Assembly: GCA_030680855.1 (NCBI GenBank)
Contig: JAUXUN010000067.1
Span: 1-39,699, forward strand
Direction: 5' to 3'
DNA from: Aestuariivirga sp.
GTDB taxonomy: Bacteria > Pseudomonadota > Alphaproteobacteria > Rhizobiales > Aestuariivirgaceae
DNA length: 39,699 bases
The position numbers were made by a program, and so were the translations under genes. Within the stretch, counting starts at the first letter, position 1; each line of letters opens with the position of its first letter. Under the pieces are notes generated by a model. The model was not told the DNA's origin. It did no database searches and worked only from the letters and a program-made list of their open reading frames with translations. Below, one piece after another: positions 18,253-37,078 of this stretch.

Positions 18253-19008
18253 ATGCGCGCCGAAAAAATAGCGGCCCTTCGGGCTTCCCTCGCCAGGCCG
18301 GGGTTGGCGGAAGCCTCCATCCGCGTTCCGATCGGCCATGCCGCCGCCGATCTCTGCCTGAAGGGCGGGCTTGAGCCCGGCGTGCTGCATGAGGTTTTCG
18401 CAGGGCTCGGCCATGAAGCGGCGGCAACCGGTTTCACGGCAGGCCTCGCCGCCCGCGTGTCCCTAGGCAAGCGCCTGTTGTGGATTCGTCAGGATTTTTC
18501 CGCCCTGGAATTCGGCGAACTTTCGGCAACCGGGTTTCTGGAATTTGGATTAAATCCGGCGCGCCTGCTGCTGCTCTGCGTCGGCGATGCGGCGGGCGCA
18601 CTTCGCGCCGCAAATGATGCGCTCTCCTGCGCCGCCCTGGGCGCTGTTGTGATCGAGATTGCGGGCAGGCCGAAAATTCTCGATCTGATGGCAAGCCGGC
18701 GGCTGACGCTGGCCTGCGCCCAAAAAAACGTCACCGCTTTTCTCCTGCGCTTCAACGCGGAGCCCGAGGCCAGCACCGCCGTAACCCGCTGGCTGGTGCG
18801 CGCCGCTCCTTCGCCGCCGCAGGCGGAAAACTGGGGCCATCCGGTTTTCGAGGCAGGCCTCGTCCGCAACCGGCATGGGCGAACGGGGGAGTGGGTCATG
18901 GAGTGGAATTGTGATGATGGTCTCTTCAAGGAAGCGGATCGTGGCGCTGTGGTTTCCGCGCCTTCCGACCGACCGGCTGCAGCGGCGCGGCAAGCGGCAA
19001 GCCTCTGA
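18253..19008 (+). CDS. imuA: ImuA, mutasome accessory protein
   Basis: A 251-residue RecA/SulA-like protein of the ImuA family, which with ImuB and DnaE2 carries out damage-induced translesion synthesis. Recognisable parts are the leader MRAEKIAALRASLARPG, the GLEPGVLHEVFAG segment, the WIRQD strand, and ARLLLLCVGDAAGALRAAND, where RecA-like proteins have their core sheet. No intact Walker A is visible, as usual for ImuA. Its 3' end overlaps imuB by about 95 bases in another frame, a long overlap that ties the two translations. Regulation is by the LexA box at 17485. Confidence 0.88.
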   Translation: MRAEKIAALRASLARPGLAEASIRVPIGHAAADLCLKGGLEPGVLHEVFAGLGHEAAATGFTAGLAARVSLGKRLLWIRQDFSALEFGELSATGFLEFGLNPARLLLLCVGDAAGALRAANDALSCAALGAVVIEIAGRPKILDLMASRRLTLACAQKNVTAFLLRFNAEPEASTAVTRWLVRAAPSPPQAENWGHPVFEAGLVRNRHGRTGEWVMEWNCDDGLFKEADRGAVVSAPSDRPAAAARQAASL

Positions 19009-23400: not shown

Positions 23401-23766
23401 AAAGACGGCACACCTGCTTCCTGTGCCGGCATTGTTCTGGTGCGCCAGATGCCGGGTGATTCCGGCGTGGTCTTCATGACGCTCAGCGACGAGGCGGGCA
23501 TCGCCAATGTCGTGGTCTGGCCCAAGCTGGTTGAAACCTTCCGCCGCGAAATCATGGGCGGGCGGCTGCTGCTGGTCGAGGGCCGGGTGCAGCGCAGCCC
23601 CGAAGGCGTTGTCCATCTCGTGGCCGAACGCTTCTTCGACCGCTCACACGAACTGGAGCGCCTGTCGGAAGATGTGACGGAGGCGCCCTCGTTCCGCGCG
23701 CAGGCCGCCAGGCACCGCCACCCCCGCAATGTCCGCACCGTGCCGAAGTCGCGGGATTTCCACTAG
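20440..23766 (+). CDS. dnaE2: Error-prone DNA polymerase DnaE2 (ImuC)
   Basis: A 1108-residue C-family polymerase that copies damaged DNA in the SOS response. The PHP domain occupies about residues 1-210 (start SAYAEIAVTTNYSFLRGASHP). The polymerase palm has the catalytic aspartates in PPDIDVDFEHERREEV (around 415-420) and the KVDVLALGML segment (around 565). A helix-hairpin-helix region follows, and the OB fold (GVVFMTLSDEAGIANVVVWP, around 1010) is near the end. The chosen ATG overlaps the imuB stop (ATGA) and gives the family's normal leader; an in-frame ATG at 20416 is less likely. It is shorter than replicative DnaE and lacks its C-terminal tail, as expected. Last gene of the SOS operon, 23 bases from a convergent ABC ATPase gene. 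Confidence 0.93.
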   Translation: MSAYAEIAVTTNYSFLRGASHPWEFAGMAAKLRLAAIGIADRNTLAGIVCAYAAVQAIEENRPKLLVGARLVFVDGTPDILAYPTDRAAYGRLCRLLSAGKLRAPKGECHLALHDLLKWQEGLLLVVMAPHPGQKEKVDDSPKNFWNKNLAEEDEEVGELPEETHANASQVSPEEIQSLLEKLSHAAPGRLWLGVSMPHKGDDRRRLREWQRVACAASVPLLATNDVLYHSPERRELQDVVTCIREHVTLNEAGRLLEANAERHLKAPGDMEELFKEAPEAIAETIRFADRITFSLDQLKYNYPDEPVPKGKTAQEHLEEIAWQGAASRYNGVISDKLRATLEKELALIAKMDIAPYFLTVHDIVSYARSQDILCQGRGSAANSAVCYVLGITAVDPMQIDLLFERFISEERKEPPDIDVDFEHERREEVIQHVYKRYGLHNAALTATVICYRPRSAIRETGKVFGLTEDVTANLASGVWGSWGSALKEGQVRQGRLDPFNRIIKRAVEAANDLIGFPRHLSQHVGGFVLTRDRLDEIVPVGPATMEDRHFIEWDKDDIDALRMMKVDVLALGMLTCIRKAFDLIRIHKGESYELATVKREDPRVYDMLQKADAIGVFQVESRAQMSMLPRLKPKEFYDLVIEVAIVRPGPIQGGMVHPYLRRRSGVEKVEYPSPGPEHGEKNELFDVLSKTMGVPLFQEQAMKLAIVAAEFTPDEANGLRRAMATFRHVGTINNFKEKFVGRMVDRGYEPEFAERCFKQIEGFGSYGFPESHAASFAHLVYISAWIKKFHPDAFACALLNSQPMGFYAPAEIVRDAREHGVEVRHVDVNFSEWDNTLEPCEGGLALRLGFRQVSGFREDWARTLLSSRANGYRAVSEVARRVRLPKRAFIILAEADSFQSISMDRREILWAVRRIADDDALPLFAAQYVEEQTEEEIAPLPLMPLSEHVLADYQMLRLSLRAHLMFFLRDMFCSEGVWDCAQISGAKDGTPASCAGIVLVRQMPGDSGVVFMTLSDEAGIANVVVWPKLVETFRREIMGGRLLLVEGRVQRSPEGVVHLVAERFFDRSHELERLSEDVTEAPSFRAQAARHRHPRNVRTVPKSRDFH

Positions 23767-23789: not shown

Positions 23790-24845
23790 TCAATAACGCA
23801 ATCGCTCGCCTGTCTCGCCATCGAAAAGATAGATGCGGTCCTTGAGGAAGGTGAAGGCAATCGGCGTGTCAATGTTCTGACGGAACGTCCGGTGCCCCTT
23901 GGCGACCACAAGCTGCTCGCCGGCCCATGCGGCCACCAGGGTTTGATCGCCCGTCGGTTCAAGTGAATAGATTTTCGATACGAAATTGCCGTCCTTCGCC
24001 GGGCTGATTTCCATGTCTTCCGGGCGAATGCCAAGGACGACATTTTTGTGCGATGCCTTGCCCAGGTTTTTGACTTGGGTGTTTGGTCCCGTGAATGTTC
24101 CCTTTTCCAGCGATCCCTTGATGAGGTTCATCGGCGGCGAGCCGATGAAGCTTGCCACAAAAATATGGTTCGGGTCATTGTAGACTTCATCCGGCGTGCC
24201 GAGCTGCTGGATCTTGCCCTTGTTCATGATGGCGATGCGGTCAGCCAGCGTCATCGCCTCGATCTGGTCATGAGTCACATAGATCGTCGTCGTCTCAAGA
24301 TCGCGTTGAATGTGCTTGAGTTGCGCCCGCATGGTGAGGCGGAGCTTGGCATCGAGATTGGAAAGTGGCTCATCCATCAGGAAGACTTGCGGCTGGCGCA
24401 CAATGGCGCGGGCCAGGGCGGCGCGCTGGCGCTGGCCGCCGGAAAGGGCCCGAGGTTTGCGGTCGAGATAGTCGCCCAGTTCAACCATTTCGGCCGCCTT
24501 GCGCACCAGCCGGTCGTGATCGGCCTTGGGAACGCCGCGCATGCGCAACGGGAAGCGGATGTTCTCGTAAATCGACATGTTGGGATAAAGCGCATAGCTC
24601 TGAAAAACCATGGCCACGTCGCGGTCGCGCGCGTCAACATCGGTGACCAGCTCGCCGTCGATTTCAATTTCTCCGGCGGTAGGCTCTTCCAACCCGGCGA
24701 TCATGCGCATGGTCGTGGTCTTGCCGCAGCCCGAGGGGCCGAGAAAAACCATGAATTCCTTGTCCCGGACTTCAAGGTCAATGGCATCGACACCCACGAA
24801 TGAGCCCCACGCCCTGCTGATTCCGCGAAGTTTGATTTCCGCCAT
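23790..24845 (-). CDS. Carbohydrate ABC transporter ATPase (UgpC/MalK type)
   Basis: A 351-residue ATP-binding subunit with all motifs: Walker A GPSGCGKTT (residues 37-45), signature [14 protein letters not shown] (around 136), Walker [14 protein letters not shown]-loop VTHD, and a MalK-like C-terminal domain from about residue 240. The start has AGGAAGG upstream. It is a lone gene divergent from the DRL operon, with 278 bases between them, and no permease adjoins it. The binding-protein/permease operon at 31514-34912 has no ATPase of its own, so this protein probably energises that importer, alone or with the ATPase at 39189-39699. Confidence 0.88.
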   Translation of the reverse strand: MAEIKLRGISRAWGSFVGVDAIDLEVRDKEFMVFLGPSGCGKTTTMRMIAGLEEPTAGEIEIDGELVTDVDARDRDVAMVFQSYALYPNMSIYENIRFPLRMRGVPKADHDRLVRKAAEMVELGDYLDRKPRALSGGQRQRAALARAIVRQPQVFLMDEPLSNLDAKLRLTMRAQLKHIQRDLETTTIYVTHDQIEAMTLADRIAIMNKGKIQQLGTPDEVYNDPNHIFVASFIGSPPMNLIKGSLEKGTFTGPNTQVKNLGKASHKNVVLGIRPEDMEISPAKDGNFVSKIYSLEPTGDQTLVAAWAGEQLVVAKGHRTFRQNIDTPIAFTFLKDRIYLFDGETGERLRY

Positions 24846-25062
24846 GTGCCTTCCTGAATGTCACTTCGGCGCTTGATAACACACCGACAATCGTCCGTAG
24901 AGCATCAGCAGTGATATACATGCCGACAATAAATGCAACATTTTTAACGAACGAAGAACTTTTGATACATGAATTATGGGGACAGAGAGGGTTTCCCTGT
25001 GGAATTTATCTCTTCAGATATCCTAAATTGGCGCAATTCAGATCATAATCCAGTATTACATA

Positions 25063-25090
25063 TTGACATTTTAGAGTATAAAAGTATCTT
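25063..25090 (+). promoter_or_regulatory. Candidate promoter of the DRL-E1-E2-kinase operon
   Basis: A perfect -35 TTGACA (25063-25068) is followed after 16 bases by TATCTT (25085-25090). It lies in an AT-rich stretch that contrasts with the surrounding coding DNA and would start transcription roughly 30 bases before the ATG at 25124, which has GAGG as ribosome binding site. Visual prediction. Confidence 0.5.
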
Positions 25091-25123
25091 TATTGAAATC
25101 ACGAAGACAGGATGAGGTGACCC

Positions 25124-26485
25124 ATGGGTGGTGCGGTTAAGAGAGCGCGGCACGATGGCCCGAGGGCCATTGGTCCTGCCAGCGGTCTTGCGACGGATCT
25201 GGCCGGCCGCCTGCGGAAGGAAGGGCGGCCCATTCGCATCGGCCTGATCGGCTCCGGCGAAATGGGCACCGATATCGTCACCCAATGTGATCAGATGACC
25301 GGCATCACCGTCGCCGCCATTGCCGAGATCAACATTGATGCGGCGAAAAAGGCTTTGCGGATTTCCGGCCGCCCGCCCGAGAGCTTTGCCGTTGCCGATT
25401 CAAAAACTGCCTTTGACGCCACGTTGAAAAGCGGCATGACCGCCATCACCAATGACGCCCAGGCGGTTTGCACCAATGACCAGATCGACGTCATCATCGA
25501 TGCCACCGGCAGGCCCGCCGTGGGGGCTGAAATCGGCCTCGCCGCCATGGAGCATGGCAAGCATCTGGTGATGATGAATGTCGAGGCGGATGTCACGATC
25601 GGCGCCTATCTCCAGCATGAGGCCAAACGGCTTGGCGTTGTCTACACATTGGGTGCCGGCGACGAACCCAGCTCCTGCATGGAGCTTGTCAACTTTGTCA
25701 TCGGCCTTGGCTATCCGATTGTGGCCGCGGGCAAGGGCAAGAACAATCCGCTGAACATCGATGCAACGCCTGACCAATACATGGATGAAGCCAAACGGCG
25801 GAACATGAATCCGCGCATGCTGGTTGAATTTGTCGATGGCTCGAAGACCATGGTGGAGATGGCCGCCATTTCCAATGCGACCGGGCTGGTGCCCGATTGC
25901 CCGGGGATGCACGGCCCCGCCGCAACCCTTGAACAGCTTGAATCCGTTCTGTGCCCCGTGGCCGATGGCGGCTTACTGTCGCGCAAGGGCGTTGTCGATT
26001 ATTCCATTGGCAAGGGCGTGGCGCCTGGCGTTTTTGTGGTGGCCGAGATGGCCCACCCCCGCGTGCGCGAGCGCATGCATGATCTGAAACTCGGCAAGGG
26101 GCCTTACTACACGTTCTACCGGCCCTATCATTTGACCAGTCTTGAGGTGCCCCTGTCCTGTGCCCGCGCCGTGCTTTACGGCACCGCCGACATGCAGCCC
26201 TTGCCGCATCCTTCGGCGGAGGTCTGTGCGGTTGCAAAGAAGGATTTGCAGCCCGGCGATACGCTCGATGCCATTGGTGAATACGCATATCGCGCCTGGA
26301 TCATGACCTATGAAGGAGCCGCCGCTTCGCAAGCCATTCCCTGCGGGCTTCTTGAAAACGGCAAGGTTACCAAGCCCATCAGGAAGGGCGAACTGATTAC
26401 CTACGGCAATGCCGCTGTCGATCAGGCCTCGCGCATTGTGGCGTTGCGCAAAAGGCAGGACGAACTGCTGGCAAGGATCAACTGA
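25124..26485 (+). CDS. DRL (DXR-II)-like 1-deoxyxylulose-5-phosphate reductoisomerase family protein
   Basis: A 453-residue NAD(P)-dependent oxidoreductase with homoserine-dehydrogenase-like architecture and a C-terminal SAF-like domain. It closely matches my memory of the Brucella DRL protein, which catalyses DXP to MEP in place of DXR: GLIGSGEMGTDIVTQ (residues 40-54), GKHLVMMNVEADVTIG, LGAGDEPSSCMELV, GKGKNNPLN, NMNPRMLVEFVDGSKTMVEM, KGVAPGVFVVAEM, and the SAF part with AVAKKDLQPGDTLDAIGEY. Such proteins are often mislabelled as flagellar FlgA because of the SAF domain. It is the first gene of the operon and overlaps the E1 alpha start by one base. That context is catabolic, so the enzyme may run from a methyl-branched polyol phosphate to a deoxyketose phosphate rather than serve isoprenoid synthesis (inference). 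Confidence 0.8.
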   Translation: MGGAVKRARHDGPRAIGPASGLATDLAGRLRKEGRPIRIGLIGSGEMGTDIVTQCDQMTGITVAAIAEINIDAAKKALRISGRPPESFAVADSKTAFDATLKSGMTAITNDAQAVCTNDQIDVIIDATGRPAVGAEIGLAAMEHGKHLVMMNVEADVTIGAYLQHEAKRLGVVYTLGAGDEPSSCMELVNFVIGLGYPIVAAGKGKNNPLNIDATPDQYMDEAKRRNMNPRMLVEFVDGSKTMVEMAAISNATGLVPDCPGMHGPAATLEQLESVLCPVADGGLLSRKGVVDYSIGKGVAPGVFVVAEMAHPRVRERMHDLKLGKGPYYTFYRPYHLTSLEVPLSCARAVLYGTADMQPLPHPSAEVCAVAKKDLQPGDTLDAIGEYAYRAWIMTYEGAAASQAIPCGLLENGKVTKPIRKGELITYGNAAVDQASRIVALRKRQDELLARIN

Positions 26486-27519
26486 TGGCAGAGCCTGTCG
26501 CAATGATGAAAGGCGATGCGGCTAGCAATCAGCGCCCGTTCTATGCGCAGTTCACGCCCGAGCAACTGAAAGAGGCGCTGCGCCGCATGTGCCTCATCCG
26601 GCGTTTTGAAGAGGGTGCCGAGGAAGCCTATATGCGCGGCCTCATTCACGGCACCATGCATCTCTCTATCGGCCAGGAGGCAAGCGCCGTAGGCTCCACC
26701 ATGGCGCTGCGCAAAACCGATTACATCACCTCAACGCATCGCGGCCATGGCCACTGCATCGGCAAGGGGGCCGATCCAAAGCTGATGTTCGCCGAGTTTT
26801 TTGGCAAGGAAGAAGGCTATTGCCGCGGCCGCGGCGGCTCCATGCACATCGCCGATGTCGAGAGCGGCAATCTCGGTGCCAACGGAATTGTGGCCGGCGG
26901 CATTCCCATTGCCGTGGGAGCGGCGCTTGCCATCAAGAAGCAGAAGCGCGACGACGTGGCCCTGTGTTTCTTTGGCGATGGCGCCACCAATGAAGGAGCC
27001 TTCCACGAAGCCCTCAACATGGCCTCGATCTGGAAACTGCCGGTGATTTTCGTGTGCGAGAACAACAAATACGGCATGTCGGTTTCAACCGAACGCTCCA
27101 TGGCAGTTGCTAATGTGGCTGACCGCGCCAGCGCCTACAACATGCCGGGTGTCATCGTCGATGGTAACCGGATCGAAGAGGTGGCCGAAGCCGTTTTGAC
27201 CGCCATTGCGCGGGCCCGTGAAGGGCAGGGACCAACGCTGGTTGAATGCAAAACCTACCGCACCCGTGGCCATTCGAGAAGCGACCGCAATCGCTACCGC
27301 ACCAAGGAAGAGATTGAGGAATGGAAACTGCGCGATCCAATTGGCCATTTCGAAACCGAGCTTGTGGCCAACGGCATCGCGACCGCCGATGAAGTTGCAG
27401 CGATTTTTGCCGCTTCCGATGCGGAAATCGCGGCAGGGTTGATATTTGCGCAGAACGGCACCGACCCTTCCCCCAATGAAGTGACGCGCGACGTCTACAC
27501 CCCCGGAATTCCGGCATGA
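26485..27519 (+). CDS. Thiamine-dependent dehydrogenase E1 alpha (acetoin/pyruvate dehydrogenase type)
   Basis: A 344-residue E1 alpha subunit. The thiamine diphosphate site is GDGATNEG (164-171) and ENNKYG (192-197). [14 protein letters not shown] (84-97) and [22 protein letters not shown] (in part) follow the AcoA/PdhA pattern, and the phosphorylation-loop region reads [12 protein letters not shown]. With E1 beta it cleaves or decarboxylates a keto substrate and passes the acyl group to lipoyl-E2. AcoA-type E1 splits acetoin to acetaldehyde and an acetyl unit. No acetoin regulator (AcoR) or acoX is nearby; the neighbours are a DXP-type reductoisomerase and a sugar kinase. Its ATG overlaps the DRL stop by one base, and its end overlaps E1 beta by four. 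Confidence 0.87.
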
Positions 27520-28514
27520 ACGCGCCCATCCGCGAACTGACCTATGCGCAAGCCATTCAGGAAGCGCTGGCCACTGCCATGGAAGCCGATGAACGGGTTT
27601 TCATCATGGGTGAAGATATCGGCGTTTATGGCGGGGCCTTTCAGGTAACCGGCGATCTTGTCCACCGCTTCGGTGAGGATCGTGTCATGGACACGCCGAT
27701 TTCCGAACTTGGTGCGGCCGGCATCGCGGTTGGTGCGGCACTTGCCGGCAGCAGGCCCATTCTGGAATTTCAGTTCTCAGATTTCGCCACGCTGGCCATG
27801 GAGCAGATCGTCAACCAGGCGGCCAAGATGCGCTTCATGCTTGGCGGCAAAGTGTCGGTGCCGCTCGTCATGCGCTTGCCCTCGGGTTCTGGCACGGGAG
27901 CTGCCGCCCAGCACAGCCAATCGCTGGAGGCCTGGCTCGCCCATGTTCCGGGCTTGAAGGTGGTTCAGCCATCCACGCCCCATGATGCAAAGGGATTGCT
28001 GCTCGCGGCCATCGATGATCCCGATCCGGTGATGGTCTTCGAACACAAGCTTCTCTACAAGATGAAGGGCGAAGTGCCCGAGAAAGCCTACCGCATTCCG
28101 ATTGGCAAAGCTGTCGTCAGGCGCGAAGGCCGCCACGTCACCATTGTCGCCACCTCCATCATGGTGCATCGCGCCCTTGAGGCTGCCGAAGTTTTGGCAG
28201 GCGAAGGCATTGAGGCCGAGGTTATTGACCTCCGGACTCTGCGCCCCCTCGACACCGCCACCATCATCGAAAGCGTGAAGAAGACAACCCGGCTTGCCTG
28301 CGTTTATGAAGGGGTGAAAACCCTGGGCATCGGCGCCGAGATCAGCGCGCTGATCGCCGAAAGCGAAGCCTTCGATTATCTCGATGCGCCAATCCTCAGG
28401 CTGGGCGGCGTCGACTCGCCCATTCCCTACAATCCAACTCTCGAAAAAGCTGCCGTGCCGCAAACCCCTGGAATCATTGAGCAGGTCCGCAATCTCGTGA
28501 AGGGCAGGATTTGA
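27516..28514 (+). CDS. Thiamine-dependent dehydrogenase E1 beta
   Basis: A 332-residue transketolase-like beta subunit of the E1 heterotetramer. Family blocks are [17 protein letters not shown] (near residue 28), [17 protein letters not shown] (near 63), the EFQFSDFA strand, [22 protein letters not shown] (in part) and the transketolase C-terminal domain from about 200 ([16 protein letters not shown]). It has no lipoyl extension, unlike some PdhB proteins. The four-base ATGA overlap with E1 alpha and the three-base gap to E2 make co-translation certain in practice. Acetoin versus pyruvate specificity cannot be read reliably from sequence by eye. Confidence 0.88.
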
Positions 28515-28517
28515 CCC

Positions 28518-29732
28518 ATGCCTGTCGAGGTCATACTGCCCAAAGTTGATATGGACATGGCGACCGGCAAGATTGCGAAGTGGCATGTGAAGGAAGGCGA
28601 CGCCGTCAGGAAAGGCGCGTTGCTTTTCGAGATTGAGACCGACAAGGCGGCGATGGAAATCGATGCACCCGGCGATGGCATCATCCGCAATATCACAGCA
28701 GCTGAAGGTGCCGTTGTGCCGGTTGGGCAGACGGTGGCACTTATCTATCAGGACGGCGAAGCCGCTTCGGCCCCCGTTGCAGCGGAACCCTTACCCCCGG
28801 TGAAGCCCATTACACCGGCACCTCGTCCAGATGCGGAACAGACGGCTGTACTCCCTGCAGCCTCCGCATCTGGACGTTTTCCTGCAACCCCGCTCGCGAG
28901 AAGCCTGGCAAAGCAAGGCGGCATTACCCTCGAAAACATTGCAGGGAGCGGCCCGCGCGGGCGCATCGCCGCGATCGATGTTCACGGCGTTCTTGCCAAG
29001 CCAACTGCCCCGCAACATGGGGATGAGGGCGGCTTTGAGGTGATTCCACTGGATGGAATGCGCCGCACCATTGCCCAGCGCCTGACGCTTTCCAAGCAGA
29101 CGATCCCGCATTTCTATCTCACCGTGAACTGCGACCTGACCAGGCTTTCGGAAATTCGGGAAATCCTCAATGCCCAGGCGCCACGAGACGCGCAGAAGCT
29201 TCCGGTTTGGAAATTGTCGATCAATGATTTCATTATCAAAGCCATGGCGTCAGCCCTCGAGCTGGTACCTGACGCCAATGTGACTTGGGCCGACGAGGCA
29301 ATTCACAAGTATCACAGTTGCGATGTGGGCGTGGCCGTTGCCGTCGAAGGCGGCCTGTTCACACCTGTTGTGAGGGCCGCAGAGACCAAGTCGCTGTCAC
29401 AGATTTCGGAGGAAATGAAGGATCTCGCCACGCGCGCGAGGGCGCGAAAACTGTTGCCTTCGGAATACCAAGGCGGCACTACGACTATTTCCAATCTTGG
29501 CATGTACGGCATTGAACAGTTCACGGCGATCATCAATCCGCCCCACGCGACAATCCTGGCCGTTGGCGCCGGCATGGAGCGCTTCGTGCCCGTTAACGGA
29601 TTGCCGGTGTTGCGCACCCAGATGACCTGCACGCTTGCCTGCGATCATCGCGCCGTTGACGGGGCCCTTGGCGCGCAACTGCTGGCCGCATTCCGCAATT
29701 TCATCGAAGAACCGGCCTTGATGCTGGCCTGA
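28518..29732 (+). CDS. Dihydrolipoamide acetyltransferase-type E2
   Basis: A 404-residue E2 core with one lipoyl domain (1-78; lipoylated Lys43 in ETDKA), an Ala/Pro-rich linker, a peripheral-subunit-binding domain (about 119-155: ATPLARSLAKQGG...GSGPRGRI) and the acyltransferase domain (about 170-404) with catalytic His377 and Asp381 in HRAVDG. It transfers the acyl group from E1 to CoA and normally binds an E3 lipoamide dehydrogenase; no lpd gene is present in the window, so E3 must be shared. The linker region of the gene contains a 14-bp perfect inverted repeat (28824-28876). Specific acyl group unknown, acetyl most likely. Confidence 0.88.
   Translation: MPVEVILPKVDMDMATGKIAKWHVKEGDAVRKGALLFEIETDKAAMEIDAPGDGIIRNITAAEGAVVPVGQTVALIYQDGEAASAPVAAEPLPPVKPITPAPRPDAEQTAVLPAASASGRFPATPLARSLAKQGGITLENIAGSGPRGRIAAIDVHGVLAKPTAPQHGDEGGFEVIPLDGMRRTIAQRLTLSKQTIPHFYLTVNCDLTRLSEIREILNAQAPRDAQKLPVWKLSINDFIIKAMASALELVPDANVTWADEAIHKYHSCDVGVAVAVEGGLFTPVVRAAETKSLSQISEEMKDLATRARARKLLPSEYQGGTTTISNLGMYGIEQFTAIINPPHATILAVGAGMERFVPVNGLPVLRTQMTCTLACDHRAVDGALGAQLLAAFRNFIEEPALMLA
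28824..28876. repeat. 14-bp perfect inverted repeat inside the E2 linker region
   Basis: CGTCCAGATGCGGA (28824-28837) and TCCGCATCTGGACG (28863-28876) are exact reverse complements separated by 25 bases. They encode parts of the Pro/Ala-rich linker between the lipoyl and subunit-binding domains. In mRNA this would form a strong hairpin inside the E2 message. Confidence 0.75.
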
Positions 29733-29774
29733 ACCATGCAATAGTATTGTTTCTTTGAACGGAGACGAAAACCC

Positions 29775-30719
29775 ATGCGCTATGACTACGCGTCGATTGG
29801 CTTCTACACCTTCGACTGCCTCGGCTGGCCGTTCACCGCCGTTCCGCCCGGGGGCGGGACAAATTTCATTGATGAGCTCACCTTGGCCGTTTCCGGTGCG
29901 GCCGGAACCGCGTCAATCGCCGCCTCGAAGATGGGTCTGAAAACACTGGCCGTCGGCGGCGTGGGCTTCGATCTCATGGGGGACTGGGTGCTGAAACGCT
30001 TGCAGCACTTCGGCGTCGATACCTCCGCCATGCAGCAGCGGGATGGCTGGAAAACGTCTTCTTCAATCGTGACAACGCGCCGCGATGGCTCGCGGCCGGC
30101 GCTGCACATGAAGGGTGCCACCGCTGATTTCTACGTTGATGACGCCATGATGAATCAGGTGACTGACGCGAAGGTGGTTCACATCGGCGGTATCGGCCTG
30201 ATGAAAAAAATGGACTCAGGCCGCAATGCCGAGTTGATGAAACGGGCCAAGCAAAACGGCGCGGTGACGACGGTGGATATTTTCGCGGGCTCGAAAGACG
30301 ATATGCCCGCCGTAGCCATGGTCTTGCCCCATACCGATTATTTCATGCCCTCCATCGAGGAAGCCCAGGCCTTGACCGGCCTTGCGGACATGGGGGAAAT
30401 CGCCCGGCATTTCATTGGCCTCGGGGTGAGGTGCTGCGTGTTCACGCTGGGCGGCGATGGCGCCTATTATCATCACGCCGATGGCAGCGTATTCAAGATT
30501 CCGGCCTTCGATATCGCCGTCAAATGCACCTGCGGCTGCGGTGACGCATTCAACGCAGGCTTCGCCGTTGGACTCAACAAGGGCCTTGACCCGCAAACGA
30601 CCGTGCGCTTCGCCCAGGCGACATCCGCCCTCAATGCAACGGGGCTCGGTTCGCAGGCTGGCGTCGAATCCTTCGAGCATACAATGAATTTCATGAAGAC
30701 GACGAAGGTTAAGGCTTAG
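29775..30719 (+). CDS. PfkB-family carbohydrate kinase
   Basis: A 314-residue ribokinase/PfkB-type sugar kinase. The substrate lid and glycine pair lie near the N-terminus (PPGGGTNF, and SGAAGTASIAASKMG around residues 40-54), GGVGFDLMGDWV follows, and the second PfkB signature is KCTCGCGDAFNAGF with catalytic base Asp257. It phosphorylates a sugar, polyol or nucleoside with ATP; PfkB proteins act on fructose, ketogluconate, ribose, erythritol-like polyols and others. It is the last gene of the DRL operon, 42 bases after E2 with GGAG upstream, and converges on an unknown gene five bases away. In the proposed pathway it would make the branched polyol phosphate. Confidence 0.85.
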   Translation: MRYDYASIGFYTFDCLGWPFTAVPPGGGTNFIDELTLAVSGAAGTASIAASKMGLKTLAVGGVGFDLMGDWVLKRLQHFGVDTSAMQQRDGWKTSSSIVTTRRDGSRPALHMKGATADFYVDDAMMNQVTDAKVVHIGGIGLMKKMDSGRNAELMKRAKQNGAVTTVDIFAGSKDDMPAVAMVLPHTDYFMPSIEEAQALTGLADMGEIARHFIGLGVRCCVFTLGGDGAYYHHADGSVFKIPAFDIAVKCTCGCGDAFNAGFAVGLNKGLDPQTTVRFAQATSALNATGLGSQAGVESFEHTMNFMKTTKVKA

Positions 30720-30724
30720 GGCAA

Positions 30725-31504
30725 TCAATACATCGCCTTGATGCTTGCCAGCTCCGCAGAAAGTCCGGCCACATCGCGTTTTGCGATGAAGGCTGAGATG
30801 TCCTTCAGCCGCGGCAGGATAAGCGCCCCGACAATGGCAAAGAACTCATCCTCGTCCTGGATTGCAATGGGCTTGCCTTGCTCGGCAAACAGCAGCGCAA
30901 CGCAGGCAATCGCGAATACTACGATGTTGGGATCCGTGTCTTCAAACAGGCGCGCCGATCCCAGGGATTTTCCAACTCGCGCCACCGGCGCCGTTTCCAC
31001 CAGGGCCAAAAGCGTACGTGCCAGGAAATCTGTTTCCGCCTCGGCCACCGAACCGATATCCTCGCTGGCCAATAGCCTGCGCGCCGCATCCACGCGATGT
31101 TCGAGCAGGAGATAGGGCGGCTCCGAATAGCGTTTGATGATGTGAATTGCAGCGCGGAAGAAATAGGCATTGAACAGGGGATTGTGAACCAGGCTGTTCT
31201 TGCGGATGGCTTCGGCCACCTCATTCATCATGCCCGGCGCGAACGGTGACGGCAGCTTGCGCCAGCTCGGCAGGAACAGCGCAATGGATACATTGGCGCC
31301 CCATGTCATGAAGCGGTCCGCCTGCCGCGCCATGCGGGCAACAAGGCCCGACAGGAAAGCGACATTGCGCCGCTCATTGCCCCTGTCGGCTCGCGACATG
31401 TCACGCACATAGAATTGCGCCGTGCGCAAGCCGTCACGGGTGCCGGCGGCAACGCATACGGCGTGGGCGGCAAGGGTGTTTGCGGTTTGGAATTCAATCT
31501 TCAT
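30725..31504 (-). CDS. Conserved-looking protein of unknown function in the ABC operon
   Basis: I do not recognise this 259-residue protein. It has no signal peptide or clear membrane helix and appears mostly alpha-helical and cytoplasmic, with Arg/Ala-rich helices (AAIHIIKRYSEPPYLLLEHRVDAARRLLASE). The C-terminal part (FAIVGALILPRLKDISAFIAKRD) might be taken for a helix pair. It starts nine bases after the second permease gene, so it belongs to the importer operon, and ends five bases from the convergent PfkB gene. Base composition and codon use look like the neighbours. Conservation beside this transporter in other genomes would be the first clue to its role. Confidence 0.65.
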   Translation of the reverse strand: MKIEFQTANTLAAHAVCVAAGTRDGLRTAQFYVRDMSRADRGNERRNVAFLSGLVARMARQADRFMTWGANVSIALFLPSWRKLPSPFAPGMMNEVAEAIRKNSLVHNPLFNAYFFRAAIHIIKRYSEPPYLLLEHRVDAARRLLASEDIGSVAEAETDFLARTLLALVETAPVARVGKSLGSARLFEDTDPNIVVFAIACVALLFAEQGKPIAIQDEDEFFAIVGALILPRLKDISAFIAKRDVAGLSAELASIKAMY

Positions 31505-31513
31505 AAGGCCAAT

Positions 31514-32347
31514 TCAACCCTTAACTGCGCCCATCGTCAAGCCACGGGACAAGTGATTCTGTATCAGGATTACCAAAAGCAGAATCGGGAAGAAAGCCAT
31601 GAAGGAAACCAGCGCGATGGCATTGTAGATGATGCCGTCGGACCCACCTGAGAAATTGGCAAGGGCCACGGAAAGCGGATAGGCGTTTCTGGAGGCAATG
31701 ATGAGCGTGAAGAGATATTCATTCATCGCGAAGATGGCGGCAATGACGGCAGCCGTCACAATGCCCGGCAGGCACATGGGAATGATGATGGACCACAGAA
31801 TGCGCAGATCCGAAGCGCCATCGGTGCGGGCCGCATCCTCGATTTCCGGGGGGATATCGAGCATGTAGGACCGGATAATCCAAACCACGATGGAGAGATT
31901 CATGGCGGCGTAGACGAGCATAAGGGCCCAGACCGTGTCGAGAATGCGGAATTGGCCGAACAGCACAAAAATCGGAATGGCGACTGCGGCGGGCGCCATC
32001 ATCTTGGTCGAGAGAATGTAGAACCCGATGTCTTCGCGGCCCCTGAATTTGTAGCGCGCCAGCGCGTAAGCCGCAGGGATTCCGAGCAGCAGGCAGATGA
32101 AAACACTGCCGGCAATCGCCATCACGGAATTCTTGAAATAGGTGATAAGTGGCCATTCGTCCATGATCTTGGCCCACGTCTCGATCGTCAGCGTGGGGAA
32201 ATAGATGGGACGGGGTGCGATGATTTCATTGCGCGGCCGCAACGCTATTGTTGCAAAAAACAGGATGGGGAGAAAGCAGAGGAGGCCCCAGATCGCCAGA
32301 ACCAGCTTGCGCAGCCAGATGCCTCTTTCAGGTTTTGCGGCCATCAT
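31514..32347 (-). CDS. Carbohydrate ABC transporter permease (MalG type)
   Basis: A 277-residue inner-membrane subunit. Helix 1 is at residues 10-30 (KLVLAIWGLLCFLPILFFATIAL in part), and five further helices follow. The EAA loop PPEIEDAARTDGASDLRILWSIIIPMCLPG lies around residues 160-190 (partly quoted). It overlaps the MalF-type partner by four bases and is followed by the unknown 259-residue protein. The substrate is not known; the locus points to a polyol or sugar. Confidence 0.87.
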   Translation of the reverse strand: MMAAKPERGIWLRKLVLAIWGLLCFLPILFFATIALRPRNEIIAPRPIYFPTLTIETWAKIMDEWPLITYFKNSVMAIAGSVFICLLLGIPAAYALARYKFRGREDIGFYILSTKMMAPAAVAIPIFVLFGQFRILDTVWALMLVYAAMNLSIVVWIIRSYMLDIPPEIEDAARTDGASDLRILWSIIIPMCLPGIVTAAVIAAIFAMNEYLFTLIIASRNAYPLSVALANFSGGSDGIIYNAIALVSFMAFFPILLLVILIQNHLSRGLTMGAVKG

Positions 32348-33258
32348 TCAACCCCTGACTTGAAGAAGCGGCGCACCAATGTTTGCGCCAGAATGATTGT
32401 GGCAACCAGAAGCAAGACAGACGCGGCGGAGGCATAGCCCTGTTCGAAGCTCTTGAAGGCCGTGCGGTAGATGAAATAGCTCAGGGTTTCAGTGTTTCCG
32501 CCCGGCGTGCCCTGGGTAATGATATGCACCGATGCAAACATGGTGAGAATGTCGATGCCACGCAGCACCAGCGCAATGGCAATCACCGGCCGCATCATTG
32601 GCAGCGAAATATTGAAAAAAATCTTGCGCCACGAGGCGCCGTCAAGCCGCGCGGCCTCTTCCACCTCCTTGTCCATACCCTGCAAGGCGGCCACGAAAAT
32701 GATGAACAGGAAGGGCGTCCATTGCCAAACGTCGGTCACCACCAGGACGAGCCGGGCGAGAACTGTAGAGCCCATGAAATCAATATTGCCGGTGATGAAC
32801 CCCGCGCGGGTCAGCAGGTCGCTGATCACCCGGCCGTCGTTGAACAGGAGTTTCCACAGGAATGAAACGGCGGACGGCATGAACAGCATGGGCAGCAGGA
32901 ACAGGATGCGCCAGGCCTTCACCCAGCGGTCACGGTAAACCAGGGCGGCAAGCGTCAAAGCGATGAAGAATTCGAGGGACAGGGTGACGACGCCAAGCAC
33001 CAGCGTGTTGCTCAGGCTGGTCCAGAAGGCATTGTCAACCAGAAGCTCGCGGTAATTCTGCAGGCCGGCATATTCAAGCTTGAACTTGCCGGTCATCGTG
33101 CTGCGGTAAACCGCATAGATGCCGGGATAAAGCGTGATGCCCAACAGGTAAATGACTGCCGGGGCCAGCAGGAAATAGGGGAAAGCCTTGCGCATGAAAG
33201 GGCTGCGGCGGACCAGTGTCCGTTTCGCTGGATGTAATGTGAGCGCCACATCGGTCAT
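32344..33258 (-). CDS. Carbohydrate ABC transporter permease (MalF type)
   Basis: A 304-residue permease with six predicted helices, the first at residues 26-46 (AFPYFLLAPAVIYLLGITLYP in part). The EAA motif is EVEEAARLDGASWRKIFFNISLPM (partly quoted), near residue 205. It follows the binding-protein gene after 79 bases that hold a terminator-like hairpin, and its end overlaps the MalG-type partner by four bases. The Shine-Dalgarno before the ATG is weak, in line with lower output than the binding protein. Confidence 0.87.
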   Translation of the reverse strand: MTDVALTLHPAKRTLVRRSPFMRKAFPYFLLAPAVIYLLGITLYPGIYAVYRSTMTGKFKLEYAGLQNYRELLVDNAFWTSLSNTLVLGVVTLSLEFFIALTLAALVYRDRWVKAWRILFLLPMLFMPSAVSFLWKLLFNDGRVISDLLTRAGFITGNIDFMGSTVLARLVLVVTDVWQWTPFLFIIFVAALQGMDKEVEEAARLDGASWRKIFFNISLPMMRPVIAIALVLRGIDILTMFASVHIITQGTPGGNTETLSYFIYRTAFKSFEQGYASAASVLLLVATIILAQTLVRRFFKSGVE

Positions 33259-33294
33259 GACAGTAGTTTACCAGCCTTGTTTCGATTGGGTATG

Positions 33295-33323
33295 AAAAAA
33301 TGGCCGGGTCACCCCGGCCATTT
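33295..33323 (-). terminator. Terminator-like hairpin between binding-protein and permease genes
   Basis: On the - strand an 11-bp perfect stem (AAATGGCCGGG and CCCGGCCATTT, bases 33298-33323) with a four-base loop is followed directly by a run of U residues (six A on the + strand from 33295). This has the form of an intrinsic terminator, yet the permease genes of the same transporter start only 37 bases further on, so partial read-through is implied. Confidence 0.75.
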
Positions 33324-33337
33324 CAGCGTTGTTGCGC

Positions 33338-34912
33338 TTAGAATGGCAATTTCTTGTCCTTGCCAACCCACATGCCGGGGGCCATCGAGGCGTAAGAAAC
33401 TGGATCGGCGCCTTTGTAGAAGCCGCTCTTTTCCATGATCGCCTTGACCTTGCCTGCCGCTTCATCGAGGGCGGCCTTGGGTTGCATTTCGCCAACAACC
33501 ACCTTGTTGATCAGGAAGCCGATTTCCTGGTCCATCTGGAAGGCGTTTGGCAGGCGCGGCGCGCACCAGCAATAATCCAGCTCTTCAGCCCAGACTTTGG
33601 CTGGCTGTGCAACGGCACGGAGCTTTTCATTGTTCAGCACCGACTTGTAGCCCGGCGCCACGCCATTGGCATTGGCTTCGTTCATAGCCATGATCGAGGC
33701 CGTGGTGAGGAAAGCCAGCATGAGGAATGCGGCTTCTGGTTCGGGCGAGGTCGAAGTGACGCCCGATGTCGAACCGGCGATATTTGGCGGCGCGAAGCGC
33801 CCACCTGTAACGCGCGGCTCATAAATAGTGAGAACATCATCGCCGATCTTGCTTTGGTCGGGGCGGGTGGCCTGTGTGCCCGAATCCTGCCACGAGATGT
33901 TGCAGGCAATCTGGCCGCCGAGCCAGGCGGCGCGGTTGGTTGGCCAGTCGGCCGCCGCCACGCCTTCGATGGCATGCTTCGAAAGCGCCACGATGGTTTC
34001 AAGGCCCTTGACGCCGGCGTCGCCGTTGAAAATGGGTTCCCACTTGTCGTCGAACAGCTCAAGGCCATACTGGGCCGCAACATGCTGCCAGGTATATGTC
34101 GCCCAGAAGCCGCGGCCGCACATCATGCCGATGGCGTTCACGCCCGGTTCGGCTTTGTTCAGTTCCGGCGCCAGACGGATCATTTCGTCATAGGACGGGA
34201 TGGTGTTGACGCGGTCCGCATCGTTGCCGAGAACTTTTTTGAAGATCGAGGGGCGGATGTGAACCTGCTGGATGTCGCAGTCGAACGGAATGCCCATCAG
34301 GCCCTTGTCACCCCAGTGGCCGTAATTCAGCGTGTAGGTTTCGTAGAAATCGTCGATCGGCAATTTCCACTTCGCGGCATATTCATCCAGCGGCTTGAGG
34401 AAGCCCTGGGCGGCGAAATCGCCAAGCCAGGGCGAGAAGAATTGCAGAGCATCGAAGCTGGCATTGCCCGAAAGGAACTCGGCCACAACCTTGTCGTACA
34501 TCGAGTCATCGGGAATGGCGACAAGCTCGACATTGATGCCGGAGAGTTCGAGGAACGGCTTGATGCCATCCTGGGCCGATTCACGGTCGGCGGCGCCAAT
34601 GGCAAAGCGCACCGTCTTGCCCGCATGCTCCTTGCGCACGGCTTCCCAGTCCACGGTTCGGATCCAGTCCTTGTTCGGGTCCCACAATTCATCATTGTCG
34701 CCAAGCTTGTATTGCTCGCGGTATTCCTTCTTCACGTATTTTCCAACGTTGATCCCCGCCAGAACGTCGGCCGGATCCGCCATCGCGGCAAGTGCGCCAG
34801 TGACATTGAACATCGATACGCCGCCAACTCCCGAAACCAGGGCAGCACCCGCTGCAGCGCTGGATTTCAGAAGCGACCTGCGCGTGATAAGGCCGGATTT
34901 TTTCTTCAGCAT
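33338..34912 (-). CDS. Large Tat-exported ABC substrate-binding protein
   Basis: A 524-residue family 1 solute-binding protein, larger than the usual 400-430. The signal is of twin-arginine type: MLKKKSGLITRRSLLKSSAAAG, hydrophobic to ALAAMADP, so export of a folded protein is likely. GGAGGAAA eight bases before the ATG at 34912 decides the start; an in-frame ATG at 34978 would add 22 residues before the Tat motif. An unusual segment of about 70 residues (GKYVKKEYREQYKLGDNDELWDP in part) comes before the typical VRFAIGAADRESAQDGIKPFLE start of lobe 1. It is the first gene of the importer operon and lies divergent from a SorC regulator. Ligand unknown. Confidence 0.87.
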   Translation of the reverse strand: MLKKKSGLITRRSLLKSSAAAGAALVSGVGGVSMFNVTGALAAMADPADVLAGINVGKYVKKEYREQYKLGDNDELWDPNKDWIRTVDWEAVRKEHAGKTVRFAIGAADRESAQDGIKPFLELSGINVELVAIPDDSMYDKVVAEFLSGNASFDALQFFSPWLGDFAAQGFLKPLDEYAAKWKLPIDDFYETYTLNYGHWGDKGLMGIPFDCDIQQVHIRPSIFKKVLGNDADRVNTIPSYDEMIRLAPELNKAEPGVNAIGMMCGRGFWATYTWQHVAAQYGLELFDDKWEPIFNGDAGVKGLETIVALSKHAIEGVAAADWPTNRAAWLGGQIACNISWQDSGTQATRPDQSKIGDDVLTIYEPRVTGGRFAPPNIAGSTSGVTSTSPEPEAAFLMLAFLTTASIMAMNEANANGVAPGYKSVLNNEKLRAVAQPAKVWAEELDYCWCAPRLPNAFQMDQEIGFLINKVVVGEMQPKAALDEAAGKVKAIMEKSGFYKGADPVSYASMAPGMWVGKDKKLPF

Positions 34913-34952
34913 TGGTCGTTTCCTCCATTTAATGGCCTGCTCATGATTGTTT

Positions 34953-34982
34953 TTGCGTGCCGTCAGGCCTGAATGCACGCAA
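34953..34982 (-). other. 30-base nested palindrome in the binding-protein leader
   Basis: TTGCGTGC (34953-34960) pairs with GCACGCAA (34975-34982), and the loop itself contains the perfect palindrome TCAGGCCTGA (34963-34972). In the - strand mRNA it would sit about 40-70 bases before the start codon. It may be an operator or a 5' stabilising hairpin; the sequence alone does not decide. Confidence 0.55.
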
Positions 34983-35314
34983 GTTCTTGATGGTCTTTTT
35001 GCCGGCTGAATGACCGGATAGGGGAGAGCTGGCGCGCAATTGGGCGCTCACTGAAGAATGGAAACGTGGTGTTCTCTCACTCAACTCCTGCTTCTCCCTT
35101 GCCCGGTGTTTATCGTTGGTCTGGTGTGCCAGCCGGTTTCAATTGCAGAGTGAGGATTATAATACTTAATTCATTTTAAAAATGCAAATGTTTCGTTATG
35201 AGGCGCCAAAATTAACCCGTTCTCATCACAAGGCTGATAGTTGTACTGCGATAAAGCCATAAATTCCTTGATTGGGTCTAATTTTGTCTCTATTTTGCTG
35301 TTTGGAGTGAAATG

Positions 35315-35344
35315 TACAAAAGTTGCAAATTATATATTTTTGTA
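35315..35344. promoter_or_regulatory. Dyad TACAAAA-N16-TTTTGTA, possible regulator operator
   Basis: Two 7-base half-sites, TACAAAA (35315-35321) and TTTTGTA (35338-35344), are exact inverted repeats in an AT-rich stretch about 110 bases before the SorC gene. SorC-family proteins bind extended dyads near their own genes, so this is a candidate site. AT-rich DNA yields such dyads by chance fairly often. Confidence 0.3.
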
Positions 35345-35451
35345 TCTTCGAACGTCGGTCCTTCATTTGACGTGCTATCGCCATTGCCCCTCTCGGCTGT
35401 TACAGAGAGTGAACTGACAAATCAGCGGTTTTCGCGAGGCTAGAAGCCAAA

Positions 35452-36447
35452 ATGCTAGAAAAAACCACATCCCGGAAGGCCAGGCCCGCCAGCAGCAGTG
35501 ATCGTGGTGCCGGGCGGGTGGCGCGCAACCGCCTGCGCATCGCCTGGATGTATTATGTCGAAGGCCTGACCCAGAACGAGATCGCCGACAAGCTTGGCAT
35601 TGGCCGGGTGACCGTGGTGCGAAACATCAACGAGGCCCTCAAGCAGCGGGAAGTAAAAATCTGGATTGAGGGCGAGATCGCCGAATGCTTTGAACTTGAG
35701 GTGCAATTGAAGAAGGCCTTTGGCCTGCGCGAGGCCATCGTTGTCCCCGAGCCTTCAAGCCCTGCGAATGTGACCAAGGCGATTGGCGTGGCGGCCGGCA
35801 TGTATATTACCGACAGCCTCACCGACGACATGTCAATTGGCGTAGGCTGGGGGGCAACCCTTTATGAATCGCTCCAGACGCTGACGCCGCGCGAACTTGA
35901 GAATGTGCAGGTCGTGTCCCTGCTGGGCGGCATCGTCCAGGCCCGGCGTTATAATCCTTCGGAATTTGCATGGCAGTTTGCCCGCATTGTTGGCGCCGAT
36001 TGCTACCTCCTTGCGGCACCCGCCGTCGTCGATTCGCCCGAAACCAAGGAAGCGCTGATTGAGCGCTGCGGCTTGCGCGACGTGCTGCGCCGCGCCGAAC
36101 GGATCGATATGGCGCTTCTCAGCGTTGGCACCATGGCGCCGGATTCAACCGCCTTCCGCTTTGGTTTCAGTTCCGAAGAAGAGCGCACCGCCCTGATCCG
36201 CCTGGGCGCCGTTGGTGACCTGCTTTACAATTTCTATGATAATACCGGCACGCTCGTTGACCACCCCATCAATCAGCGCGTGATGTCCATTCCGCTTGAG
36301 CAATTGCGCGGCGTGCCGCTGCGGGTCATTGCCTCCGGCGGCCATGAGAAGGTTGAGCCGATCCTTGGCGCCATCAAGCTGGTGAACTGCAATGTCCTGA
36401 TCACCAATGAGGCAACGGCGCGCGAACTGTTGCTGAGGCGGAGCTGA
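35452..36447 (+). CDS. SorC-family sugar-responsive regulator
   Basis: A 331-residue SorC regulator. The helix-turn-helix is at about residues 38-60 (LTQNEIADKLGIGRVTVVRNI), followed by the NagB-like effector domain with IGVGWGATLYESLQTL (near 125) and VVSLLGGIVQARRYNP (near 155) and the family end NVLITNEATARELL. A basic, low-complexity leader (RKARPASSSDRGAGR) precedes the DNA-binding part. It is divergent from the binding-protein gene and so probably controls the importer operon and itself. A single base separates its stop from the next ATG. Confidence 0.88.
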   Translation: MLEKTTSRKARPASSSDRGAGRVARNRLRIAWMYYVEGLTQNEIADKLGIGRVTVVRNINEALKQREVKIWIEGEIAECFELEVQLKKAFGLREAIVVPEPSSPANVTKAIGVAAGMYITDSLTDDMSIGVGWGATLYESLQTLTPRELENVQVVSLLGGIVQARRYNPSEFAWQFARIVGADCYLLAAPAVVDSPETKEALIERCGLRDVLRRAERIDMALLSVGTMAPDSTAFRFGFSSEEERTALIRLGAVGDLLYNFYDNTGTLVDHPINQRVMSIPLEQLRGVPLRVIASGGHEKVEPILGAIKLVNCNVLITNEATARELLLRRS

Positions 36448-36448
36448 G

Positions 36449-37078
36449 ATGCTCACTCCTCTCAAATCTGAAATCCTCAAAGTTGATGACCTGAGCCACG
36501 AGGCGCGCCGCTTCAGAACCATTCTGTGGTCCTTCGAACGCAACATGGACCTTCTGTTCAAGGATACGGGACTCACCGCCGAGGTCGATCACGCCGCACT
36601 GGCGGAAGCCTTTTCCCGCTGGCGCTTGGCCTTCGACAATTCCAAGTATCTGGCCAGCACCGACCGGCGCGACTTCGTCATCTACGCGGCGGGCCTTATG
36701 CTCAAGGAACTCATTGCCGCTTCGCCGCTGAAGGCCGTAGAAGGAAAAGAGCAGGGGCTTTCCGTCCTGCCCATCGAGATCGATCATCGCCTGAAGCGCT
36801 GGCCCGAGGGCTATGCCTATACCAGCTTCTGCCTGTCGGTCGCCGCCGCCATCCTCAAGGAAATGGGTGATGCGGAGCCGGTTCTGGCATCAAAGACCGA
36901 CGATCCCCGCTTCTGGGATTCCTTCCGGGAGAATGCCCTGGAAAGCCCAACCATGGCCGTGGCCTTTTTCGATCTTGTCTGCGGGCAGGATCCCAATTGG
37001 GAAGCGCCTGACGTGCCATGGCTGCGCCGCGTTGTCTCGCGGTCGATTGACGTCGCCTCCCATGTAAGGGCCTCGTAA
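36449..37078 (+). CDS. Protein of unknown function coupled to the SorC gene
   Basis: A 209-residue cytoplasmic protein I do not recognise. It lacks a signal peptide and membrane segments and looks largely helical, with conserved-looking patches such as RFRTILWSFERNMDLLF (near 22), SRWRLAFDNSKYLASTDRRDFV (in part, near 60), RWPEGYAYTSFCLSVAAAIL (near 109) and DPRFWDSFRENALESPTMAVAFFDLV (in part, near 148). It starts one base after the regulator stop, so it is co-translated with it, and its stop codon abuts the stop of the convergent SorC gene with no space. Close coupling to a regulator of a sugar importer suggests a part in the same pathway, but no function can be assigned. Confidence 0.68.
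   Translation: MLTPLKSEILKVDDLSHEARRFRTILWSFERNMDLLFKDTGLTAEVDHAALAEAFSRWRLAFDNSKYLASTDRRDFVIYAAGLMLKELIAASPLKAVEGKEQGLSVLPIEIDHRLKRWPEGYAYTSFCLSVAAAILKEMGDAEPVLASKTDDPRFWDSFRENALESPTMAVAFFDLVCGQDPNWEAPDVPWLRRVVSRSIDVASHVRAS

Follow-up and report, generated by a model that had tools for sequence, protein, structure and literature searches.

A gene cassette joining DXR-II to an E1/E2 complex in Aestuariivirga, a probable catabolic operon for 2-C-methylerythritol

Acetoin dehydrogenase (AcoABCL) cleaves the C-C bond beside a methyl ketone and forms acetyl-CoA, and the erythritol and sorbitol operons (ery, srl/gut) combine alditol import, through an ABC transporter or a glucitol-type phosphotransferase system (PTS), with a kinase and a SorC-type regulator. 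We examined a locus that has elements of both beside a gene for DXR-II (DRL), a reductoisomerase of 1-deoxy-D-xylulose 5-phosphate (DXP) and 2-C-methyl-D-erythritol 4-phosphate (MEP). It lies in a 39,699-nucleotide stretch of Aestuariivirga sp. (the window; GenBank assembly GCA_030680855.1, contig JAUXUN010000067.1, positions 1 to 39,699), which makes up contig C54 of a genome of 3.73 Mb with completeness rated 100%. A sequence-only reading of the window had described a tight plus-strand run of five genes at 25124-30719, and open reading frame (ORF) and Pfam analyses bore this out: DXR-II, E1-alpha, E1-beta, E2 and a PfkB-family kinase follow one another, the first three ORFs overlapping by 1 bp and 4 bp and the later ones set apart by 3 bp and 42 bp. 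The unit is larger than had been described, however, as homologous ABC transporter, SorC regulator and orphan-protein genes recur with the five-gene run in other genomes; we therefore count them in a cassette extending over 23790-37078.

Judged from sequence and gene content, the cassette probably serves to catabolise 2-C-methyl-D-erythritol or a branched tetritol very like it. This methylerythritol-type interpretation, first proposed from the five genes, is supported by comparative genomics: by a cassette that crosses phyla, by exchange of its import module, and by the gene content of two Bacillota genomes (L130, L131). In the pathway envisaged, the ABC transporter would bring in the tetritol and PfkB would convert it to MEP by phosphorylation; both tasks would fall in other lineages to a glucitol-type PTS, or to a major facilitator superfamily (MFS) carrier with an FGGY kinase. 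DXR-II, whose enzymatic identity is well supported, would then run from MEP to DXP, oxidising and rearranging its substrate. Given the type of E1 and its linkage, the thiamine diphosphate (ThDP) of E1 would attack the methyl ketone of DXP and split C2-C3, yielding glyceraldehyde 3-phosphate and hydroxyethyl-ThDP, and the two-carbon unit would be oxidised by E2/E3 to acetyl-CoA. A phosphorylated intermediate is probably the signal for the SorC regulator.

Identity and genomic linkage of the DXR-II genes

The window DRL aligned with the Brucella DXR-II structure 3UPL over 433 residues. Lys191, Lys193, Thr229, His250, Arg320 and Tyr322 (Brucella numbering) are given as substrate-site residues of DXR-II in PMC3847144, and the window DRL keeps all six. 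Among 68 cassette DRLs, K191, K193, T229 and R320 were present in 68/68, H250 in 63/68 and Y322 in 66/68. The DXR-II class was set at matches of at least 212 bits and 489-495 bp, the next class falling at about 210 bits or less and at least 552 bp; the window DRL (230 bits) belongs to DXR-II and not to the 552-bp class, which we infer to be the DLO2 of PMC3847144. Its best plasmid matches came from Sinorhizobium, Agrobacterium, Rhizobium and allies (64-70% identity), and such genes are now annotated only as 'NAD(P)H-dependent oxidoreductase', 'SAF domain-containing protein' or 'homoserine dehydrogenase'.

Phylogenetic placement, a check put forward with the sequence-only reading, came out in its favour. 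A quick tree of 170 DRLs, built after dropping ORFs shorter than 380 amino acids and returned with several long-branch warnings, placed the window DRL with those of other cassettes and the Brucella enzyme in their midst. The Brucella enzyme belonged to a starred set of 42 rows, 17 of them cassette rows, and among the 169 DRLs compared with it the closest was a cassette copy (L041, 75%). For the Brucella row the E1 label was set to 'none', its gene neighbourhood not having been inspected.

Across 297 genomes of the order, DXR-II was present in 60 (76 genes), nine of which also had DXR-I, as counted by hand from listings. The neighbourhoods of all 76 genes were assessed for about 8 kb on each side where contigs allowed, with ORFs labelled by BLAST. 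E1-alpha and E1-beta lay beside the DRL at 23 loci, or at 24 if L061 is included; the E1 pair of L061 is diverged and lies at a distance, and this locus was left out of the cassette counts and of the cassette label in trees. Genome G241 also proved to have the pair beside its DRL after one locus was refetched. Orthologs of the window E1-alpha numbered 29 (at least 461 bits, 66-100% identity; next match 321 bits) in 28 genomes. All 28 had DXR-II, compared with 60/297 overall (Fisher 7e-23, a value that ignores kinship), and 24 of the 29 E1-alphas stood in one gene run with it. An E1 gene away from any DRL, in G141, adjoins a glucitol PTS and the orphan gene.

Named genomes were scanned with a Priestia-led DRL alignment, a query aimed at Bacillota whose fractions are not natural frequencies. 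Of 565 confirmed stretches, the best 79 distinct loci were kept (27 of the 79 shorter than 15 kb); they included 50 with a glucitol PTS, 37 with E1-alpha and E1-beta, 32 with both, 48 with SorC and 22 with LpdA. Plasmids were covered by opening 12 records of the 111 with a DRL match; SorC-like ORFs were found at 10 of these 12, as well as at 17/76 order loci. The control consisted of 20 loci picked among the listed matches of the other DRL class: none had E1 or glucitol-PTS genes nearby, and one (L224) had PfkB- and FGGY-like ORFs. With 0/20 in the control against 23/76 in the order and 37/79 among named loci, chance linkage of DRL and E1 was rejected.

Grouping of the DRL with E1/E2 and a kinase, the other feature to be looked for, was encountered in several phyla, with a phosphorylating PTS or FGGY kinase sometimes in place of the PfkB kinase. 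The DRL-E1-E2 set also occurs in Bacillota, Chloroflexota, Actinomycetota and Spirochaetota. Around this constant set the import module is swapped between ABC plus PfkB, a glucitol-type PTS (GutM, IIC, IIBC, IIA, EI-HPr) and MFS plus FGGY kinase, and any of the three should supply the cell with a phosphorylated polyol. The 23 order cassettes comprised nine with ABC and PfkB, nine with PTS and five with no module seen, or ten with ABC and PfkB and four with none seen if L073 is counted, where PfkB passed one labelling only. Copies of the MalK-type ATPase, 59-83% identical, were found at nine other cassettes with PfkB. The six plasmid cassettes divided into two ABC plus PfkB, three PTS and one FGGY, and the 37 named E1 loci into 32 PTS and five with none seen. 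By tblastn, DRL also adjoins the E1 ortholog in Sinorhizobium meliloti Rm41 and S. fredii NGR234. LpdA accompanies the set on plasmids of Sinorhizobium americanum (L087) and, together with lipoyl synthase, Agrobacterium (L081); those of Pseudoroseomonas (L086) and Terrarubrum (L090) have the PTS form, and that of Priestia (L082, Bacillota) carries MFS, FGGY kinase, two SorC regulators, E1, E2 and LpdA.

The order SorC-DRL-GutM-PTS also occurs without E1, at L184, L188, L189, L195, L201 and L203, in Bacillus altitudinis, relatives and Listeria, where the route would begin in the same way. Further PTS-DRL loci of this kind were found in Enterococcus, B. safensis and B. xiamenensis, and LacD-, FSA-, transketolase- or class II aldolase-like genes lie near some DRL loci.

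Isoprenoid synthesis or catabolism

DXR-II could also serve isoprenoid synthesis, and we examined which genomes depend on it. A search for canonical dxr found no DXR-I in the window genome. The cassette DRL is nevertheless not the only reductoisomerase there, since a second DXR-II, 55% identical to the first, is encoded at G000:C61; a sole reductoisomerase was what the sequence-only reading had named as telling against it. If the operon were biosynthetic, DRL would make MEP for isoprenoids, E1/E2 would be a spare pyruvate dehydrogenase and the sugar transporter would be unrelated. Such a role would fit the missing DXR-I and the pyruvate dehydrogenase-like scores of E1 and E2, yet the window genome also encodes a separate pyruvate dehydrogenase-like E1 (G000:C44, 40% identical to the window E1-alpha), and transporter and kinase are swapped around the core. 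Another reductoisomerase lies outside the cassette in 18 of the 23 order genomes with a DRL-E1 run (G241 included), against five in which the cassette DRL was the only one found (G223, G278, G170, G079 and, with two cassettes, G165). These five have IspG, and HMG-CoA reductase was not found in them; the cassette DRL should therefore make MEP there. In G278 a DXS gene stands beside the cassette, the only full-length DXS match of that genome lying inside the locus; this and the five genomes would also suit a biosynthetic role. As no other reductoisomerase was found beside the MEP pathway of these genomes, interconversion of DXP and MEP is the probable activity of the cassette DRL.

The check for HMG-CoA reductase covered 17 order genomes, two of which have it (G206, G096; both with a second DXR-II), and 12 named ones. 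DXR-I and IspG were checked in 24 genomes from the 37 named E1 loci, 12 records titled as metagenome-assembled genomes and one Candidatus Hakubella being set aside; DXR-I was present in 19, again contrary to a biosynthetic role, and IspG in 22. At L147, L149 and L153, IspG was present and neither DXR-I nor HMG-CoA reductase was found; two of these genomes have two DRLs each (L148 and L149; L153), and DRL should serve both uses there. In Virgibacillus subterraneus and Lentibacillus halodurans (L130, L131), HMG-CoA reductase was present and DXR-I and IspG were not found. Both keep the full operon SorC-GutM-IIC-IIB-IIA-DRL-E1a-E1b-E2-LpdA, which isoprenoid synthesis therefore cannot explain there. 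Draft genomes can miss genes, yet two marker genes are missing in both. On the second DXR-II and the markers of these two genomes we rejected isoprenoid synthesis as the main role of the operon, and we consider it very unlikely. The simplest account of a DXP/MEP enzyme in one set of genomes and a non-isoprenoid one in the other would be catabolism through MEP and DXP.

The same logic might apply to another branched polyol, such as a different 2-C-methyl tetritol stereoisomer or an apiitol- or hamamelitol-like compound, with E1 giving acetyl-CoA or another acyl-CoA. The PTS and kinase families indicate a polyol and no single compound, and DRL is found in loci with other enzymes. We nonetheless consider a different polyol unlikely, as cassette DRLs keep the substrate residues and, in the five MEP-pathway genomes, no reductoisomerase was found besides the cassette enzymes, which share 55-75% identity with the window DRL. 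By reasoning, a hydroxymethyl-branched substrate should moreover yield an ordinary pentulose phosphate, for which no acetoin-type E1 is needed.

A broader proposition has about an even chance of being correct: that DXR-II is mainly catabolic in at least five phyla, acting on methylerythritol of plant or isoprene origin via MEP, DXP and a dedicated thiamine E1 for oxidative cleavage of the sugar phosphate to acetyl-CoA, and that its isoprenoid use is a repeated secondary takeover. Such takeover would have allowed loss of DXR-I and would answer the origin and patchy spread of a redundant enzyme.

The second DXR-II gene of the window genome (G000:C61:14667-15158, L003) adjoins a class II aldolase and an FGGY kinase. 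This set recurs in part within the genus and family (L059, L061, L063, L068, L070) and is possibly a second branched-polyol route. An IolB-like neighbour was rejected as part of it, as it belongs to an adjacent iol-type operon. Two other genomes of the genus differ in their reductoisomerase genes: G095 has IspG, no DXR-I and a weak DRL match only (2e-9), owing to either an assembly gap or an unfamiliar reductoisomerase, and in G168 (L071) a single 297-aa ORF separates DRL from a DXS encoded on the same strand, an arrangement of isoprenoid type.

Type of E1 and gene content of the window

The E1 of the run had been called acetoin-type, a designation that motif and pairwise identity sustain but model scores do not. 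Pyruvate dehydrogenase models were the best named ones, and their NCBIfam equivalog cut-offs were not reached by E1-alpha (379.5 < 393.85), E1-beta (403 < 454) or E2 (416.6 < 445); a broader E1-beta subfamily model was passed (413 > 321). The window E1-alpha contains STHRGHGH, and among 66 cassette rows S was conserved in 64, T in 63, HRGH in 66, G in 65 and H in 65. Four aligned pyruvate dehydrogenase-type E1s carry YRDHGH in its place. The motif also occurs in an Enterococcus plasmid E1 (L246) adjoining 2,3-butanediol dehydrogenase and sigma-54 regulator genes. From gene content and sequence, we take L246 to be an acetoin breakdown locus and the four YRDHGH rows to act on pyruvate.

This motif would also suit a pathway in which E1/E2 degrade acetoin or imported 1-deoxyxylulose, with DRL draining DXP into MEP. 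The window E1-alpha is, however, only 49% identical to the acetoin-locus E1, and the glucitol-type PTS and GutM of related cassettes indicate an alditol. Neither butanediol dehydrogenase nor a sigma-54 regulator was present among the Pfam-scanned window neighbours (DRL, kinase, ABC, SorC, GpsA-like, polymerases), and neither is annotated at the five annotated plasmid cassettes (L081, L082, L086, L087, L090), the search being confined to these and the window; L081 has an alcohol dehydrogenase of unstated type 6 kb downstream. Degradation of acetoin or deoxyxylulose thus appears most improbable.

For E1 trees, E1-alpha ORFs shorter than 280 amino acids, three duplicate rows and L108 were dropped. 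A single origin of the 66 cassette E1-alphas was rejected with a Clostridioides difficile plasmid E1 as outsider (p-AU 0.004) and was not rejected without it (0.47), an exclusion chosen after the first result. That plasmid locus (L245) reads SorC-E1a-E1b-E2-LpdA plus an MFS gene, and no DRL is annotated closer than 5 kb; the E1-alpha shares 72% identity with the cassette E1 of Anaerosalibacter. Laboratory-selected E. coli mutants in aceE (pyruvate dehydrogenase E1) permit DXP production (PMC3424233); DXP chemistry is therefore within reach of thiamine E1 enzymes.

Several observations weigh against methylerythritol catabolism. The reductoisomerase equilibrium lies toward MEP, so E1 must pull flux. 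The top scores of E1 and E2 are to pyruvate dehydrogenase models, the nearest solved relatives of the window E1s are pyruvate dehydrogenase E1s, and STHRGHGH is shared by an E1 without assigned function (L112). Five of the 29 orthologous E1 genes, in five of the 28 genomes, lie away from a DRL (G265, G190, G141, G267, G254). The E1 label changes 25 times on the DRL tree, so linkage is not fixed by lineage, although frequent gain and loss would be as expected for one enzyme serving both uses. Among the best 79 named loci, 13 without the E1 pair had PTS and SorC (one of them, L136, breaks off within its E1 set) and five had PTS alone; another product outlet must therefore exist in some. DRL genes also stand with FGGY kinase, class II aldolase, alcohol dehydrogenase (ADH) or SIS-domain genes, the second DRL of the window genome being likewise kinase-adjacent, so that either copy may serve isoprenoids there. 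DRLs in such loci, among them those beside ADH, SIS and FGGY genes, may act on other compounds. In favour of the proposed direction, Dxr is listed as reversible in PMC13001223.

Features of the cassette are listed in Table 1. Motifs present in the five proteins are the lipoyl ETDKA, E2 DHRAVDG, PfkB GCGDAF, DRL GKGKNN and an E1 thiamine-diphosphate motif. The kinase had its best solved match in YdjH (3H49, 95.7 bits) and reached none of the NCBIfam equivalog cut-offs searched. No NCBIfam family and no significant Pfam match were found for the orphan protein. In the family alignment a WPEG motif never varies, nor do a W, an E and an N near the C-terminal third; a single-sequence structure model had a mean pLDDT of 41.8, too low to be of use, and the family profile matched solved structures with a best E of 0.19. 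A search for an operator motif shared by the window's two intergenic regions gave nothing convincing.

Table 1. Features of the cassette in the window
Feature	Position	Strand	Evidence and proposed role
MalK-type ABC ATPase of proposed polyol transporter	23790..24845	-	ABC_tran + OB_MalK
DXR-II (DRL) DXP/MEP reductoisomerase, 453 aa	25124..26485	+	DRL_cat PF21135 230 bits; 3UPL 606 bits; proposed MEP -> DXP
E1-alpha, thiamine-dependent dehydrogenase	26485..27519	+	PF00676 E1_dh 300 bits; STHRGHGH acetoin-type motif; proposed DXP-cleaving
E1-beta	27516..28514	+	PF02779 Transket_pyr + PF02780 Transketolase_C
E2 lipoyl acyltransferase	28518..29732	+	PF00364 Biotin_lipoyl, PF02817 E3_binding, PF00198 2-oxoacid_dh; ETDKA, DHRAVDG; proposed acetyl transfer to CoA
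PfkB-family kinase	29775..30719	+	PF00294; GCGDAF; proposed 2-C-methylerythritol 4-kinase
259-aa protein, no assigned function	30725..31504	-	homologs among order loci only at L004, L032
ABC permease 2	31514..32347	-	PF00528; present at other cassettes
ABC permease 1	32344..33258	-	PF00528; present at other cassettes
Extracellular solute-binding protein	33338..34978	-	PF01547; Tat-type signal PF10518 weak, 19.8 bits < cut-off 22.1
SorC-family sugar-binding regulator	35452..36447	+	PF04198 210 bits
Orphan 209-aa family (c4)	36449..37078	+	in ABC and PTS cassettes of alphaproteobacteria; homologs at 13 order loci

Beyond the cassette, 37079-39699 holds a second SorC regulator, a relative of GpsA-like glycerol-3-phosphate dehydrogenase and, by eye, a partial MalK-like gene, and is probably a further polyol locus. 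Pfam places genes for an ImuB-like Y-family polymerase and a DnaE2-type polymerase at 18875-23766, an error-prone repair set.

Comparison with described systems

If correct, the proposal describes a new carbon-catabolic route for methylerythritol in which an enzyme of terpenoid synthesis is widely used for carbon catabolism, which would explain the patchy spread of DXR-II. To our knowledge it would be the first 2-oxoacid-dehydrogenase-type complex to act on a sugar phosphate. Searches of open-access papers, by title and opening of the abstract, turned up neither methylerythritol catabolism nor such an operon; subscription papers could describe one. Fosmidomycin acts on DXR-II, and the proposal bears on this drug as well as on genes that carry the annotations named above.

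Among described systems, the cassette resembles the ery and srl/gut operons in its alditol import, kinase and SorC-type regulator; unlike them, its five-gene run has a reductoisomerase and E1/E2 in place of a polyol-phosphate dehydrogenase. With acetoin dehydrogenase it shares a two-subunit E1 with STHRGHGH, a lipoyl E2 and E3, and it differs in having SorC instead of a sigma-54 regulator, in the linkage to DRL and polyol import, and in a proposed substrate that is a sugar phosphate. The Brucella DXR-II (3UPL, 3UPY; Carretero-Paulet 2013, PMC3847144) is of the same family and has the same substrate-site residues; that enzyme is placed in isoprenoid biosynthesis in the literature available to us, whereas the window DRL is linked to import, kinase and E1/E2 genes and would work in reverse. 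Finally, DXS and the aceE suppressors (PMC3424233) concern the same reaction, hydroxyethyl-ThDP + glyceraldehyde 3-phosphate <-> DXP. Unlike DXS, the cassette E1 would cleave the C-C bond, and the two-carbon unit would be retained as acetyl-CoA.

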